Below are positions 2,508 through 50,538 of a stretch of DNA of 50,771 nt, one piece after another. The stretch's first letter is position 1. Each line of letters starts with the position of its first letter. The notes under the pieces were generated by a model. That model did not search any database. It was given only the letters and a program-made list of their open reading frames with translations, and was not told where the DNA came from. The position numbers and the translations under genes were made by a program. The stretch is from positions 1 to 50,771 of the IMG/VR virus record IMGVR_UViG_3300036851_000433; one strand, 5' to 3'. The stretch is from a virus.

Positions 2508-3257
2508 ATGTCGTCCGATCGCATCGACTACTACCCGATCCGCATCTCCCCCGGCAGGCCGGTATGGGAGGTGGACTGGTGGGTCAGGGTGAAGCTCGGC
2601 CTCTCCACCATCAAGCCCCCCATCGAGTACCGCTGGCGCAATGCCAGCGGTCGCAAGAACGCGCCGCCCAAGGGCAAGGTAGCGGTGCCCGCCAAGCCGT
2701 CGAAGCCGGTCGCGGCCATGACGCTGTGGCGCCGGGAGCGCACCGGGGAGGCTCTGGAGCGGGCCGTGGCCGCCAACCCGGAGGAGGAGCAGGAAACCAA
2801 GAGGTCCAAGGGCAAGGACAAGTCGCAGGGCCGATCGGGGCACAAGGTGAGGCGGCCGACGGCCATCGTGCCCTGCTACATCTATCCGGGCTTCGAGCGC
2901 GGGTGCGGTTGGGAGGACTACCGGGCCTTGAAGACGCTCTCGGACGACCTGGGCTGGGGTATCCAGGGGCTGCCGCAATATTGGGACCCGCAGACGCAGG
3001 ACTACGCCTACTACGCCCTGAGCCCGGCCCAGGTCCGCTGGCTGGAGGAGGTCACGGAAGGGGATGGGCTGCGAGCCAGGACGCAGGTGCACAAGTCGCT
3101 CGGGCCCGGCGATGCGGTGAAGATCACGCAGGAGGCCTGGGCGGGCCACGAGGGCAAGTTCGTGCGCGTGGACCGGGATTACGCCAAAGTGCTGATCCAC
3201 ATCTTCGGGAGCCTGCAGATCGTGTCGGTGCCGCTGGGCGCGGTGGAGCGGGCGTGA
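2508..3257 (+). CDS. NusG-like transcription elongation factor (NGN-like plus KOW domain)
   Basis: 249 aa. The last 50 residues match the NusG C-terminal KOW domain closely: GDAVKITQEAWAGHEGKF, then VLIHIFGSLQIVSVPL, corresponding to the family pattern G-D-x-V-x-[IV]-x-x-G-x-[WF]-x-G-x-x-G and an [IV]-F-G-R-x-T-x-V-x-[LV] strand. Upstream, around residues 118-195, PCYIYPGFERG and ALSPAQVRWL resemble the second half of an NGN domain. A basic low-complexity insert (Lys/Arg/Pro/Glu, about residues 45-120) separates it from the N-terminus. NusG-family proteins bind RNA polymerase and control pausing, termination or antitermination. Its place immediately before the late region, next to a terminator, suggests it lets polymerase read the very long structural operon. 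The canonical Arg of FGR is Ser here. Inference: a phage NusG paralogue. Confidence 0.65.
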   Translation: MSSDRIDYYPIRISPGRPVWEVDWWVRVKLGLSTIKPPIEYRWRNASGRKNAPPKGKVAVPAKPSKPVAAMTLWRRERTGEALERAVAANPEEEQETKRSKGKDKSQGRSGHKVRRPTAIVPCYIYPGFERGCGWEDYRALKTLSDDLGWGIQGLPQYWDPQTQDYAYYALSPAQVRWLEEVTEGDGLRARTQVHKSLGPGDAVKITQEAWAGHEGKFVRVDRDYAKVLIHIFGSLQIVSVPLGAVERA

Positions 3258-3301
3258 GGCCGGCGCGAATGCGAGATCTCGCGTCACCTCACATCACCCC
3301 C

Positions 3302-3331
3302 TTGCGCGAAGCGAATCGAATAGGCTATACG
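3302..3331 (+). promoter_or_regulatory. Sigma70-like promoter candidate
   Basis: TTGCGC (3302-3307), 18-base spacer, TATACG (3326-3331). The same core GGCTATACGA recurs at the promoter in front of the ribbon-helix-helix gene at 48.9 kb. It would transcribe the non-coding region and the terminase genes, unless stopped at the terminator at 3569. Confidence 0.4.
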
Positions 3332-3568
3332 ATATGGGACCTCGCCCGCTACGGGCGAACCGCCTCACGTCGTATCGCGTCGCGCCCTGTTGTGCTGATA
3401 AGCCAGATGCAGAAGGGGAGGTGACGTTCCCCAGTGCGCGAAAGAGCCGGGGAAGACCGTACCGGCGTGACGCGGATTTTGCATCTTGAGCGACGCTGAG
3501 CACAAGCCCGGAGCCCCCGCCATGAAGTGACCCGACCAGCGTCAGGCGTTTGGAGATTGCCCCCAGAG

Positions 3569-3599
3569 AGCCACCCCAGTCGGGTGGCTTTCGCGTTTC
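3569..3599 (+). terminator. Intrinsic terminator
   Basis: Perfect 8-bp stem AGCCACCC/GGGTGGCT (3569-3576 and 3582-3589) with a 5-base loop, followed by the T-rich run TTCGCGTTTC. It lies between the left operon and terS, so it would separate them unless antitermination occurs. Confidence 0.7.
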
Positions 3600-3614
3600 T
3601 AAAGGCTTAGGGCA

Positions 3615-3748
3615 GAGAGCAGCGCGCCGCCGCCTTCGGCGCGGTGGGCGCACCCGGAACCCCTTTGTCCTGACACGGCCCCTCCCCGAGCGCGGCGGGT
3701 GATCGCTCACAGTCGCAGTTCGCGCCAAGGCGGCGGCGCGCTGCTCTC
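3615..3748. repeat. Long inverted repeat, 22-bp perfect arms plus a 6-bp extension
   Basis: Left arm 3615-3636 begins GAGAGCAGCGCGCCGCCGCC; the right arm 3727-3748 is its exact reverse complement over 22 bases. After one unpaired C (3637), GGCGCG (3638-3643) pairs with CGCGCC (3721-3726). About 77 bases lie between the extended arms. I see no target-site duplication, so it is not obviously a transposable element. It could be a terminase recognition or packaging site, or an mRNA hairpin ahead of terS. Confidence 0.75.
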
Positions 3749-3783
3749 ACCTCTCGTCTTCTGACAGGCTCCCTTATCATCCC

Positions 3784-4674
3784 ATGGCCAAACGCAACGA
3801 CGGCAGCGCCAAGCTGCGCTCAAAGAAGCAGGAGGCCTTCGCCCGGAAAGTGGCCCTTGAGGGGTGCGGGATCTCGGAGGCCTACCGCGCATCGCGCGAC
3901 TGCAAGGGGATGAAGGCAACGACGGTCAACGCCAACGCCAAGCGCGAGATGAAAGCGACTCCGGTCCGACTCCGTATTGAGTGGTTGCAGGAGAACGGCG
4001 ACCCGGATGCGCCGGTGGTATCGGCTGCAGCGGCAGAACTGACTCCGAAACAGTACGCCTTCTGCCGCTTCTACGTGGAGAAGTCCAACGCTTCGGAGGC
4101 CTACCGCCTGGCCTACGACGTCTCGCCGGCCACGAAGCCCGAGACCGTGCACCGCAAGGCGGCCGAAGTGCTGGCGAACGGCAAGGTGGCGGCACGCATC
4201 GCTGAATTATTCGTCGCCCTGCAGAAGCGCCACGAGGGCATCGTGGACAGGCTAAGCGCGGAATACGAGAAGCTCGCTTTCTTCGACATCTCCCAGGCGA
4301 TCCAGTGGGGCGAGACGGTGGTGGTGCGCGATCCGGGCTCGGGCGAGATCGTCTCGGAAGCCCAGAGCGTCCAGATCCGGGCCTCCAAGGACATGCCGCC
4401 CGACATCAAGGCGGCGATCTCATCCATCGAGCAGACCAAGGATGGCTGCCTCAAGGTGCGTTTCCACGACAAGACGGGGGCACTCGACAGCCTTGCCAGG
4501 ATGCACAACCTCTTCAAGAACGTGCACGAGCACACCGGCAAGGGCGGCGGGCCGATCCAGCACCAGCGTATCGAAAGCCTGTCCGACGACGAGCTCGACG
4601 ATCTGATCAGGCGTGAAAAGGAAGCGCTCGCGGTTGTCCAGAGTGGGCAGGCAAATGGTGTTGCACGCCATTGA
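3784..4674 (+). CDS. terS: Terminase small subunit with two Terminase_2-type HTH repeats
   Basis: 296 aa. Residues about 80-140 (LTPKQYAFCRFYVEK, ASEAYRLAYD, then VHRKAAEVLANGKVAARI) match the DNA-binding helix-turn-helix region of Terminase_2 family small subunits. Residues 12-70 carry a second, more diverged copy (KKQEAFARKVALEGCGISEA, then ANAKREMKATPVRLRI). Small subunits form rings that recognise the packaging site and regulate the large subunit; a tandem double HTH is longer than the usual single domain. The C-terminus is acidic and probably contacts the large subunit. It overlaps the next gene, the large terminase. The ATG at 3784 has only a weak ribosome-binding site. Confidence 0.85.
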   Translation: MAKRNDGSAKLRSKKQEAFARKVALEGCGISEAYRASRDCKGMKATTVNANAKREMKATPVRLRIEWLQENGDPDAPVVSAAAAELTPKQYAFCRFYVEKSNASEAYRLAYDVSPATKPETVHRKAAEVLANGKVAARIAELFVALQKRHEGIVDRLSAEYEKLAFFDISQAIQWGETVVVRDPGSGEIVSEAQSVQIRASKDMPPDIKAAISSIEQTKDGCLKVRFHDKTGALDSLARMHNLFKNVHEHTGKGGGPIQHQRIESLSDDELDDLIRREKEALAVVQSGQANGVARH

Positions 4675-6391
4675 TCAGGCAGGCGATCTGCGCCGCCGCA
4701 AGGAGCTTCTCGCCAAGGCCGTCCAGGAGCAGCGCAAGCGGGCCGAACGGCGTCATTTCGAGGGCGACCTGAGCGCGTTCGTTCGCGCGTCGTGGCCGGC
4801 AATCGATAGTGCGAGCTACCAGGACAGCTGGGCACTGGACGCGCTGTGCGATCACCTGACCGCAGTCACGCGCGGGCACATCAGCCGGCTGCTCATCAAC
4901 TTCCCGCCCCGGTGCGGCAAGAGCAACATTGCCTCGATCTGCTGGCCGGCATGGACGTGGGCGCAGGAGCAGCGGTCCTTCCTGTCCGGTGCGCAAGTCA
5001 GATTCCTATGCGGCTCCTACAACCACACGCTGTCGCTCCAGCACAGCAACAAGACGCGCCGTCTGCTCGGCTCGCCGTTCTACCAGCAGCACTGGGGCGA
5101 GCGGTTCGGCCTGATGGGGGACCAGAACGCCAAGCACCAGTACGACAACACGCGTGGCGGGAGCCGCATCGCCACCTCGGTGGGCGGCACCCTGATCGGT
5201 CTTGGCGGCGATGTCATCCTGGTAGACGACCCGCACAACACGGAGGAGGTCGAGAGCGAGGCGGACCGCGCGACGGTTCTGCGCTGGTGGAAGGAAATCA
5301 GCTCCACACGCCTGAACGATCCCAAGCAGTCGGCCATCGTGGTGGTGATGCAGCGTCTGCATGAGGAGGACGTGACCGGCGCCATCCTGAAGGAGCCCGG
5401 TGACGACTGGACCCATCTGATGCTGCCGATGAAGCATGATCCGGCACGGCATTGCGTGACGGTGCTGAAGCGGGATGAGAACGGGGAGCCGGAGCAAGTC
5501 TGGGAAGATCCGCGCGAGGAAGACAAGGAGTTGATGTGGCCGGAGCGCTACGGGCCGAAAGAGGTCACGGCGCTTGAGACCAAGCTCGGGCCCTATCTGG
5601 CCTCGGGGCGTCTGCAGCAGTCCCCGGAGCCGGCCAGCGGAGGCATCCTCAAGCGCGACTGGTGGGGCGCCTACGAGCTCCCCATCGGCGGCAAGCCCCG
5701 CCACCCGTTCCAGTTCGTCATCGCCTCCCTGGACCCCGCCTTCACCGCCAAGCAGGAGAACGACCCGTCAGGTTTCACGGTCTGGGCCACCTACCTGGAC
5801 CGGCACGGCGACGTGAAGATCCTCCTCCTTCACGCCTGGAAGAAGTGGCTGGAGCTCCACGGCCAGATGGTGGACCAGCTGCCCAACGAGCCCAACAAGG
5901 CCTACGTGAGGCGGGCTTCCCCGCAGTGGGGCCTGGTGGAGTGGGTCGGCTACGAGTGCAAGCGCCTCAAGGTCCACACGCTGCTGGTGGAGAACAAGGC
6001 CTCCGGCCATTCCGTGGCCCAGGAGATCGTGCGGCTCTACCACGACAAGGCGTGGACGACGCGGCTGATCGACCCCGGCGCCCAGGACAAGCGGGCGCGG
6101 GCGTTCTCGATCCAGCATCTGTTCTCATCGGGGATGGTCGAGGCGCCGGCGAGCGCGGACGGCGACATGCTCGTGTACCGCGAGTGGGCGCAGATGGTGA
6201 TTGACGAATGCGCCAAGTTCCGCGGGCTTGCCGGCGAGGAGGACAACCTGGTGGACAGTGCCACGCAGGCGCTCAGGTTCCTCCGCGACAGCGGCCTCGC
6301 CATCCGCCGCGAGGAGCGCGAGACGGCCGAGGAGATGCGGGCGCGGCACAAGCCGCAGCAGGATTCGGTCGCTCAGGACTATTTCAGCTGA
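4655..6391 (+). CDS. terL: Terminase large subunit (ATPase-nuclease)
   Basis: 578 aa from ATG 4655; an in-frame GTG at 4613 would add 14 residues and lengthen the overlap with terS. ATPase: deviant Walker A NFPPRCGKS at about residues 82-90, of the PPRxGKS type common in terminases, and Walker B VILVDDPH at about 187-194. RNase H-like nuclease: ASLDPAF (about 360), LLVENKASG (about 443-451) and DNLVDSATQAL (about 529) supply the three acidic metal-binding positions. It powers DNA translocation into the procapsid and cuts genome ends, docking on the portal encoded at 7454. Confidence 0.93.
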   Translation: MVLHAIDQAGDLRRRKELLAKAVQEQRKRAERRHFEGDLSAFVRASWPAIDSASYQDSWALDALCDHLTAVTRGHISRLLINFPPRCGKSNIASICWPAWTWAQEQRSFLSGAQVRFLCGSYNHTLSLQHSNKTRRLLGSPFYQQHWGERFGLMGDQNAKHQYDNTRGGSRIATSVGGTLIGLGGDVILVDDPHNTEEVESEADRATVLRWWKEISSTRLNDPKQSAIVVVMQRLHEEDVTGAILKEPGDDWTHLMLPMKHDPARHCVTVLKRDENGEPEQVWEDPREEDKELMWPERYGPKEVTALETKLGPYLASGRLQQSPEPASGGILKRDWWGAYELPIGGKPRHPFQFVIASLDPAFTAKQENDPSGFTVWATYLDRHGDVKILLLHAWKKWLELHGQMVDQLPNEPNKAYVRRASPQWGLVEWVGYECKRLKVHTLLVENKASGHSVAQEIVRLYHDKAWTTRLIDPGAQDKRARAFSIQHLFSSGMVEAPASADGDMLVYREWAQMVIDECAKFRGLAGEEDNLVDSATQALRFLRDSGLAIRREERETAEEMRARHKPQQDSVAQDYFS

Positions 6392-31074: not shown

Positions 31075-31146
31075 ATGTCCTTCATAGACCGCCTCATCGC
31101 CATCGAATCCGGCGGCAACCCGTGGGTGTGGAACCGCCATGTCTGA
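31075..31146 (+). pseudogene. 23-codon start of a lytic-transglycosylase-like gene
   Basis: Reads MSFIDRLIAIESGGNPWVWN followed by RHV and a stop. IDRLIxIESGGNP is the catalytic-Glu opening of SLT-type transglycosylases. It stops where the tail-lysozyme gene starts (8-base overlap ATGTCTGA). It may be the stub left when the SLT gene was replaced, or a coupling leader peptide. Confidence 0.4.
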
Positions 31147-32647
31147 CATGGACCGCATCACGCTCGGCCGCCGCGTCTACGATTACTTCGTGGCGCGCGG
31201 GCTCGCGCCGCATCAGGCTGCAGCCTTCGCCGGCAACTGGGCATGGGAAGGCGGTGGACGCACGGACCTCGTCAATCCCGGCGACAACTGGCGCAATTCC
31301 CCCCGCGCGCCGCACTCCATCGGTCCGGGCCAGTGGAACGACCGCTCGCCGGCGCTGGTCACGTTCGCGCGCCGGCGTGGGGTGGATATCCCGGAAGGGG
31401 ATCTTCGCGATGTCGGCTATGCCCGCGATGTCGCCCGCCGCGTGCCCCTCGACGCCTACCTCGACTTCGCGTGGGATGAGATGCAGGGCCCCGAGGCCCG
31501 CGCGCTCCGCGCCGTCAGCGCCGCACCGGACCTGCGCACGGCGACGGCCGGCGCCATCGGCTATCACCGGCCGGCCGGGTTCACGTGGGCCAATCCCTAT
31601 GGCGGTCATGGATTCGAGGACCGCCTCGGGTTGGCGGAGCGCATTCTCGGAGCGGGTCGCGATGTTGAGCCGGCTGCTGCGGCGACCGTGGTGGCATCGG
31701 CGCCTGCCGCGCGCCCGCTGCCTCCCGCCACCGCATCCGCCCTGACCGGCATGCCGGCGATCCCCGCCGGCATCGCCGCGGAGATGGGAGCTCCCGGCGC
31801 CGGGGATGCCCAAGGCGGCCCACAAGACGGCTCGCGGGGACTGCAAGGCCCAGGGATGCAGGGGGTGGGCCGGTATCTCGCCGGCATGCTTGGCGGGGCA
31901 GGGCGCGGCGGCGAGGCGGATGAGGGCCAGCGCGACGTGCTGGGGTCCCAGCTGCAGCGCCAGCAGGTCGCCTTGACGGATCTGACGGCGCAGCTGCTTC
32001 GCCCCCAGAGGTACTATCGTGACGGTGGCCGTGTCGATGGCGAGGATGCGCGGCGCATCGCTGTCGCGCTCAGGATCGCCGCCAGGAAGACCGACACCAG
32101 CCCCTCCGACGCCGCAAAGGAGTCGGGGCGATACGCCAAGGGCACCTTCTCCTGGCACGGACTGAAGATCGCGATTGAGAACCCCAAGGGGTCCACCCGG
32201 TCGGGCGTGGACAAGGGCGGCAAGCGCTGGTCGGTGAAGATGCCGGCCACGTACGGGTTCGTGCGCGGGACGGAGGGGTTCGACGGCGACGCGGTCGATG
32301 TCTACGTCGGCCCCGACCATGCGTCGTCCAAGGTGTTCGTCATCGACCAGGTCGAGGCCGACACCGGCAAGTTCGACGAGCACAAGTGCTGCCTGTCCTA
32401 TGCGAGCAAGGAGGCGGCGCTCGCCGACTATCGCAAGGCGTTCTCCGACGGCAAGGCGGATCGGCGCATCGGTGCCGTCACCGAGATGGGCGTGGACGCG
32501 TTCAAGGCGTGGCTGAAGTCGCCCGCCAAGACGGGAAAGCCGGCTGGCCGGATCGCACCGCGGCGCTATGCCGATGGTGGGTCGGTGCGGCCCATCGGGA
32601 TTTCCGCGCTCGACGTTGCGCGGGCCTATGCAGGGTATGGCATCTGA
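31139..32647 (+). CDS. Tail lysozyme fused to an InPase-like polyvalent-protein domain (502 aa)
   Basis: Residues about 8-180 match the phage tail lysozyme domain: YDYFVARGLAPHQAAAFAGN, then SIGPGQWNDRSPALVTFARR and LDAYLDFAWDEMQGPEARAL, ending NPYGGHGFEDRLGLAERIL. An Ala/Pro/Gly linker leads to RYYRDGGRVDGEDARRIAVA. Residues about 318-465 match the inorganic-pyrophosphatase-like (InPase) domain of phage polyvalent proteins: SPSDAAKESGRYAKGTFSW, KIAIENPKGSTRSGVDKGG, YGFVRGTEGFDGDAVDVYVG, TGKFDEHKCCLSY. The end again carries RRYADGGSVRP and ALDVARAYAGYG. Virion-borne peptidoglycan opening plus a cytoplasmic effector in one chain suggests the C-terminal part enters the cell with the DNA. Confidence 0.78.
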   Translation: MSDMDRITLGRRVYDYFVARGLAPHQAAAFAGNWAWEGGGRTDLVNPGDNWRNSPRAPHSIGPGQWNDRSPALVTFARRRGVDIPEGDLRDVGYARDVARRVPLDAYLDFAWDEMQGPEARALRAVSAAPDLRTATAGAIGYHRPAGFTWANPYGGHGFEDRLGLAERILGAGRDVEPAAAATVVASAPAARPLPPATASALTGMPAIPAGIAAEMGAPGAGDAQGGPQDGSRGLQGPGMQGVGRYLAGMLGGAGRGGEADEGQRDVLGSQLQRQQVALTDLTAQLLRPQRYYRDGGRVDGEDARRIAVALRIAARKTDTSPSDAAKESGRYAKGTFSWHGLKIAIENPKGSTRSGVDKGGKRWSVKMPATYGFVRGTEGFDGDAVDVYVGPDHASSKVFVIDQVEADTGKFDEHKCCLSYASKEAALADYRKAFSDGKADRRIGAVTEMGVDAFKAWLKSPAKTGKPAGRIAPRRYADGGSVRPIGISALDVARAYAGYGI

Positions 32648-47794: not shown

Positions 47795-48009
47795 TTGCCG
47801 TCCTTCGGTGCGTCCAGCTTGACCAGGATGCGGTCGAGCACCTCGTCGAAATGCTTGATGACGCGCTTCTCGCTGGCGCTCACCACGGCTTTGATCCGCG
47901 TCTCGGATTCAACGACGATCTCCGAGACGGCGCGGATGATGTTCTTCTCAGTCTGCGACGCCTTTTCCAGCGCGGAGACACGGCGATCAAGGTCTTCGAT
48001 AGTGGTCAT
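47791..48009 (-). CDS. Coiled-coil protein, paralogue of 50260-50538 (72 aa)
   Basis: MTTIEDLDRRVSALEKASQT then EKNIIRAVSEIVVESETRIK. The N-terminal 40 residues are nearly the same as those of the 50260 gene. It starts at ATG 48009 after GGAG at 11 bases. Likely oligomerises and pairs with the anchored coiled-coil protein that follows. Confidence 0.65.
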   Translation of the reverse strand: MTTIEDLDRRVSALEKASQTEKNIIRAVSEIVVESETRIKAVVSASEKRVIKHFDEVLDRILVKLDAPKDGK

Positions 48010-50263: not shown

Positions 50264-50538
50264 TTCGGCGGGTTGTGCAGCCCGTCGAGCTTTTCCATCA
50301 GCTTGTCGAAGCGGTCGTTGAGGAGGTCGGTGAAGCGCTTCTCGACGCCGCCGATCCTGTCGTCGAGCCGCTGCGTCTCCACCTTCATCTCGATCCGCAA
50401 TTGGGTGATATCCACCTTCGTGCGATGCTCCGCTTCGGAGACGATCTCCGAGACGGCGCGGATGATGTTCTTCTCGGTCTCCGCCGCTGCCTCCAAGGCA
50501 GAGACGCGGCGGTCGAGATCTTCGATGGTCGTGGTCAT
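50260..50538 (-). CDS. Coiled-coil protein, paralogue of 47791-48009 (92 aa)
   Basis: MTTTIEDLDRRVSALEAAAE then EKNIIRAVSEIVSEAEHRTK match the other copy nearly residue for residue for 40 positions, after which the sequences diverge (DRIGGVEKRFTDLLNDRFDK). The region upstream, including part of the preceding gene's end, is also duplicated. Confidence 0.65.
   Translation of the reverse strand: MTTTIEDLDRRVSALEAAAETEKNIIRAVSEIVSEAEHRTKVDITQLRIEMKVETQRLDDRIGGVEKRFTDLLNDRFDKLMEKLDGLHNPPK

Follow-up and report, generated by a model that had tools for sequence, protein, structure and literature searches.

What does a long, almost perfect inverted repeat do directly in front of the small terminase gene of a phage? 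In the 50,771-nucleotide stretch of viral DNA analyzed here as a whole (a linear IMG/VR record, hereafter called the window), such a repeat occupies positions 3615-3748 and precedes a late module that comprises terS, terL, the portal gene, the gene of a phage tail lysozyme protein and those of other virion proteins. The first gene of the late operon is terS (3784-4674; Terminase_2, PF03592, E 5e-21), the family profile of which matches SF6 G1P (3zqp, E 1.5e-9), and it is followed by terL (4655-6391; phrog_38, E 5e-80). Both lie on the plus strand, as do the leader elements and the upstream gene described below. The N-terminal 80 residues of TerS (3784-4029) resemble a diverged tandem copy of its HTH domain, although the internal repeat is weak (E 2e-4), and this N-terminal extension is common to the relatives L004/L186, L221, L222, and L224. 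Further into the window, a single protein (31139-32647) harbors both phage tail lysozyme and InPase (pyrophosphatase-like) domains. Two 105-nt stretches near the end of the window (47902-48006 and 50428-50532, 80% alike) were considered as a DGR, a reading that was rejected because their mismatches are not adenine-specific.

The outer arms of the repeat, 3615-3636 and 3727-3748, are 22 nt each, complementary at 22 of 22 positions, and separated by 90 nt. Directly past a bulged C at 3637, an inner helix pairs GGCGCG (3638-3643) with CGCGCC (3721-3726), giving 28 bp in total, just as the original prediction had described it (22 perfect base pairs and six more after a one-base bulge). The prediction had also held this to be far beyond chance and had placed the repeat about 35 bases before terS, and both statements were borne out. 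Across 200 dinucleotide shuffles of the whole window, perfect repeats reached 18 bp at most, the analytic expectation for a 22-bp repeat within 300 bp is approximately 8e-6, and the runner-up among perfect repeats with arms at most 300 bp apart in the whole 50.8-kb window is of 12 bp. The 3' end of the stem lies 35 nt from the terS ATG (3784), so that the initiation region remains outside the helix. When folded as RNA, the segment 3600-3760 reaches -97.2 kcal/mol (z -5.8), and the pairing probability of the stem is 0.97-1.0 within the leader. The apical loop, of about 77-90 nt, is no better folded than shuffled sequences, either in the window (z +0.74) or in the relative L224 (z -0.78). A Rho-independent terminator was rejected as an identity for this hairpin, given the length of its loop, the sequence that follows it (ACCTCTCGTCTT), and the absence of any call by the terminator scan. 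No Rfam family reached its gathering threshold, the best sub-threshold score being that of sX9 on the minus strand (21.5 of 44 bits).

The repeat occupies the end of a 529-nt gap (3255-3783) between terS and P0006 (2508-3254), which encodes a KOW/NusG-like putative transcription antiterminator of 249 aa. This protein matches phrog_6386, "transcription antiterminator," with an E value of 4.5e-9 over its C-terminal KOW part, while a Pfam search returned no match and its N-terminal domain has diverged. Since phrog_6386 also matches the host NusG in most genomes, the family is that of NusG itself, and we infer the phage role. As in the antitermination leaders of NusG paralogs, an adjacent NusG-family gene with a KOW domain is present. 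P0006 may antiterminate at the 3255-3783 leader.

Within the gap, a promoter-like block, the leader proper, a terminator-like stem, and the repeat succeed one another. The putative late promoter, TTGCGC-17-CTATAC (3302-3330), is part of the block CTTGCGCGAxGCGAATCGxATAGGCTATACG, which is conserved in L224; an E. coli-type consensus scan did not call it. Farther downstream, the block GATAAGCCAGATGCAG (3397-3412) is identical in L224. The surrounding segment, 3389-3505, has a fold z of -3.64 in the window vs. merely -0.55 for its L224 counterpart, in which GATAAGCCAGATGCAG is retained, and a one-sequence covariance model of this segment found no convincing homologs. The terminator-like stem-loop GAGAGCCACCC/GGGTGGCTTTC (3566-3592; stem 3566-3576/3582-3592, z -3.2) has the counterpart AAAGCCGCCC/GGGCGGCTTT in L224 (z -2.9). 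It had been predicted that the repeat follows the T-run of a terminator. The stem is a good one, and the repeat begins 14 nt past the end of the tail at 3600, but the T-run itself is not a real one: the T-rich tail is weak (TTTCGCGTTTCT), and a consensus terminator scan does not call the stem-loop.

Whether the repeat acts through its sequence or through its pairing was addressed by comparison with relatives. A scan with the TerS profile yielded three full-length relatives with upstream DNA, L221, L222, and L224. Among them, L224 shares the tandem-domain TerS and encodes, directly upstream of the leader, a homolog of P0006 (45% of aligned residues). An alignment of its leader with window positions 3207-3670 spans 504 columns, of which 61.5% are identical (E 9e-24). 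The promoter block, GATAAGCCAGATGCAG, the terminator stem, and two apical motifs are all kept. Motif A, CGGTGGGCGCACC (3642-3654), is identical in L224, with its core GTGGGCGCACC at 3644 in the window and at 1541 in L224, and motif B, GGTGATCGxxCACAGTC (3698-3714), is conserved, starting at 3698 and 1625, respectively. At the corresponding place after the terminator hairpin, L224 also has a repeat with 22-nt arms, AGGCCCCCCGCGCTGCCACCCC ... GGGGTGGCAGCGCCGGGGGCCT, of which 21 of 22 positions are paired. Between the two phages, 11 of the 22 outer pairs are identical and 10 have changed on both sides with pairing intact; there are no one-sided changes, and a single pair is broken (C-C in L224). 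Two of the six pairs of the inner helix are likewise compensated. When the 3' arm of either phage was slid by 1-4 nt, at most 14 positions could pair, against 22 and 21 in register. This two-sided compensation, together with the register control, indicates that selection acts on pairing. The outer helix is thus conserved as pairing alone, while in sequence the element is best conserved at its apical motifs, and the helix is kept as expected of an RNA helix.

The arms therefore co-vary, as the original prediction had proposed to examine among relatives, in the sole relative found to have the leader, and for this reason the covariation is that of a single pair of sequences. A search with the L224 leader gave no match in phages, plasmids, and 357 alphaproteobacterial genomes; these genomes are a sample searched without a positive control, and absence is not demonstrated thereby. 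A DNA cruciform would also keep its pairing, but the conserved promoter-leader-terminator context of the element runs in the sense direction. On these sequence grounds, the repeat appears to work through pairing, most simply as RNA, and the compensatory changes, by showing that pairing matters, shift the experiments to be done from packaging to transcript mapping. The position of the element in L224 points the same way. There, the hairpin is followed by another late gene, the start of which probably lies some 50 nt away, and terS is reached only 1.58 kb downstream, beyond other genes. In both phages the hairpin thus precedes the first late ORF, though the ORF differs, and the element travels with the NusG-like gene and the leader rather than with terS.

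The reading that we favor, at a probability of roughly 55%, is that the repeat is transcribed into the 5' leader of the late mRNA and folds there into a hairpin, most likely cut by RNase III, in a control region linked to the NusG-like protein. Transcription would start near 3337, from the promoter just 3' of the NusG-like gene, and produce a leader of about 430 nt. The terminator-like stem-loop at 3566-3592 would presumably be overridden by the NusG-like protein, after which the 22+6-bp helix with its conserved apical part would form immediately before the first late gene. Host RNase III could then cut this long, regular helix, so that the late mRNA would be released from the antitermination leader with a defined 5' end some 35-60 nt before the start codon. 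The hairpin would thereby be a working part of a late-gene switch, as its preserved pairing suggests. Cleavage of the 3615-3748 helix is plausible in view of its size, since it offers at least about 22 bp of uninterrupted dsRNA and the minimum target size of RNase III is 22 nt (PMC5371410). The RNAs of phages lambda, T7, and T3 are targets of this enzyme, and the paper on the N leader is among the references of the same source (PMC5371410). The RNase III-type hairpin that had been one of the proposals for this site is thus favored by the L224 covariation and by the 22-nt size, whereas the other proposals, a terminase recognition site or a genome end, are disfavored for the reasons given below. 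Several points weigh against the favored reading: perfect long helices also have other origins, a single relative has the leader, the T-run is poor, the apical fold is unremarkable, and rhizobial phages with a similar gene order lack the hairpin. These are phiLM21, RHph_TM3_3_3, and RHph_N28_2, in which NusG-like antiterminator genes are annotated upstream of the terminase, at the early/late boundary, a placement that speaks for the reading, and in which no comparable hairpin was found.

The same RNA could serve without being cut. The NusG-like protein, or another factor, might bind the hairpin at CGGTGGGCGCACC and GGTGATCGxxCACAGTC for late antitermination or for translation of the first late gene. 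This is possible, if rather doubtful. Sequence conservation that is highest at the apical motifs, with the outer helix kept as pairing alone, argues for it, as does the adjacent NusG-like gene, and LoaP, which is a NusG paralog and promotes antitermination (PMC12691694), is a precedent for a protein of this kind. However, the hairpin lies downstream of the terminator-like stem and is therefore made after that termination decision; the upstream block at 3397-3412 is a better loading candidate, and the apical part shows no unusual structure. It is unlikely, too, that the 5' stem merely stabilizes the late mRNA, with neither cleavage nor specific binding. A stable stem with its end 35 nt short of the start codon, leaving the initiation region free, would suit that role, which would leave unexplained the conserved apical motifs and the leader of about 430 nt 5' of the stem.

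At the DNA level, the arms might be TerS binding sites that bracket a cut site, as TerS oligomers do at SPP1 pacC. The location before terS and the relatedness of the TerS profile to SF6 G1P speak in favor of a packaging site. The pac of SPP1 overlaps with the late promoter, the RBS, and the beginning of gene 1 (PMC6316719), and TerS oligomers bracket it (PMC4856287). The window element resembles this pacL-pacC-pacR arrangement in that it lies just upstream of a related terS and that two elements bracket a central stretch. In contrast, the repeats of SPP1 pac are direct ones, and the left and right binding sites are unrelated and share no identity, while the repeat here is inverted, co-varying, and untied from terS in L224. 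Pairing that is kept while the arm sequence diverges argues against a sequence-specific terminase site, and also against transposon ends. Moreover, about 1.6 kb separate the L224 element from terS, and near the terS of L221 and L222 there is no comparable repeat, so that among these three relatives the repeat is not conserved with its cognate TerS. A packaging site is accordingly improbable. Even less probable by far is a small mobile element (MITE) of the Correia/NEMIS kind. With 134 bp and 22-bp arms, the repeat is similar in length and arm length to NEMIS (107/155 bp, 24-bp TIR), the transcripts of which form hairpins that are RNase III substrates (PMC2229807). Unlike these elements, it is present in a single copy, has no target duplication, and does not conserve its arm sequence. 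No copy was detected elsewhere in the window or in the plasmids and phages searched, nor in a sample of 289 alphaproteobacterial genomes for the element alone, nor in a sample of 369 gammaproteobacterial and 193 Anaeromyxobacter-phylum genomes for the whole leader, and the flanks GGGCA and ACCTC form no direct repeat that would indicate target-site duplication. As a homologous element with co-varying arms sits at the orthologous place in L224, the mobile-element reading is largely refuted.

The wider set of relatives was examined for hairpins before terS. L221 and L222 lack not only the repeat but also the leader, and a profile search found no NusG-like gene in them. The TerL relatives L006-L170 have TerS proteins and leaders unrelated to those of the window. 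Upstream of terS, a fold z below -3.5 occurred in 9 of 141 TerL relatives vs. 5 of 117 control stretches, with no clear overall enrichment. In a stem scan, 7 of 147 loci had a long hairpin that ended 8-45 nt before terS, vs. 1 of 490 other long ORFs; the gap-matched comparison is weak (3/34 vs. 2/188), and an independent set of 79 TerS relatives showed no pre-terS hairpin at the stem-scan threshold. The idea that a pre-terS hairpin is a general hallmark of packaging was rejected on these grounds. The cases themselves look mixed: L123 has a terminator with a T-run, the hairpin of L165 is a palindrome akin to a dispersed repeat, and L008, L147, and L168 have no T-run. Since these hairpins look like terminators, palindromic repeats, or others, they do not support a common packaging function. 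Repeats near terS are thus not automatically packaging sites: hairpins recur before this gene among TerL relatives, and their causes look different. Pattern matches in L005 and L187 were discarded as coincidences in coding DNA.

Other features were noted in these contigs. In a Rickettsiales contig, L165:3438-3511 is a 27-bp-arm palindrome resembling a dispersed bacterial repeat, 22 nt before terS. The TerL genes L008:5168-7795 and L006:2558-5413 (875 and 951 aa vs. 578 aa) appear to be interrupted by an intein-like insertion just ahead of the DDPHN/DDAHN motif. Two related contigs (L060:864-1135 and L065:946-1222) have near-identical palindromic blocks, GGGGTACCCCCTTTT, upstream of their terminase genes, inverted relative to each other and spaced by about 240 bp, and palindromes resembling ParB sites lie upstream of the terminase in L069:2441-2613 (GTTTCACGTGAAACA) and in L007 near 4922 (GTTTCACGTGCAACA).

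What was a bare inverted repeat has thus become a testable regulatory module. More speculatively, the locus might represent a new class of late-operon control leader, in which a NusG-like protein, a dedicated promoter, a terminator, and a co-varying hairpin with apical motifs act together, the hairpin being released as a separate structured RNA or bound by the NusG-like factor. Known systems offer partial parallels. The leaders of the LoaP/RfaH type also combine a NusG-paralog gene with a long leader that has a terminator-like stem, but here the hairpin follows the terminator, its sequence is unrelated to anything found, and factor binding is hypothetical. The intergenic RNase III sites of T7 and T3 are hairpins directly before genes in polycistronic phage RNA. 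The present hairpin shares this position 5' of a gene, and differs in being a single site of 22+6 bp with an apical loop of about 77 nt in a dedicated leader. In the N leader of phage lambda, a long hairpin between the antitermination signals and the first gene is cut by RNase III. The likeness lies in the long leader hairpin before the first gene, whereas the operon here is a late one, for packaging, with a NusG-like regulator, a longer helix free of interruptions, and unrelated apical motifs, and cleavage is one that we infer. If the favored reading is correct, a KOW/NusG-like factor and a leader with a promoter, a terminator, and a selected helix would constitute an alternative to the late-gene switch of lambda Q.
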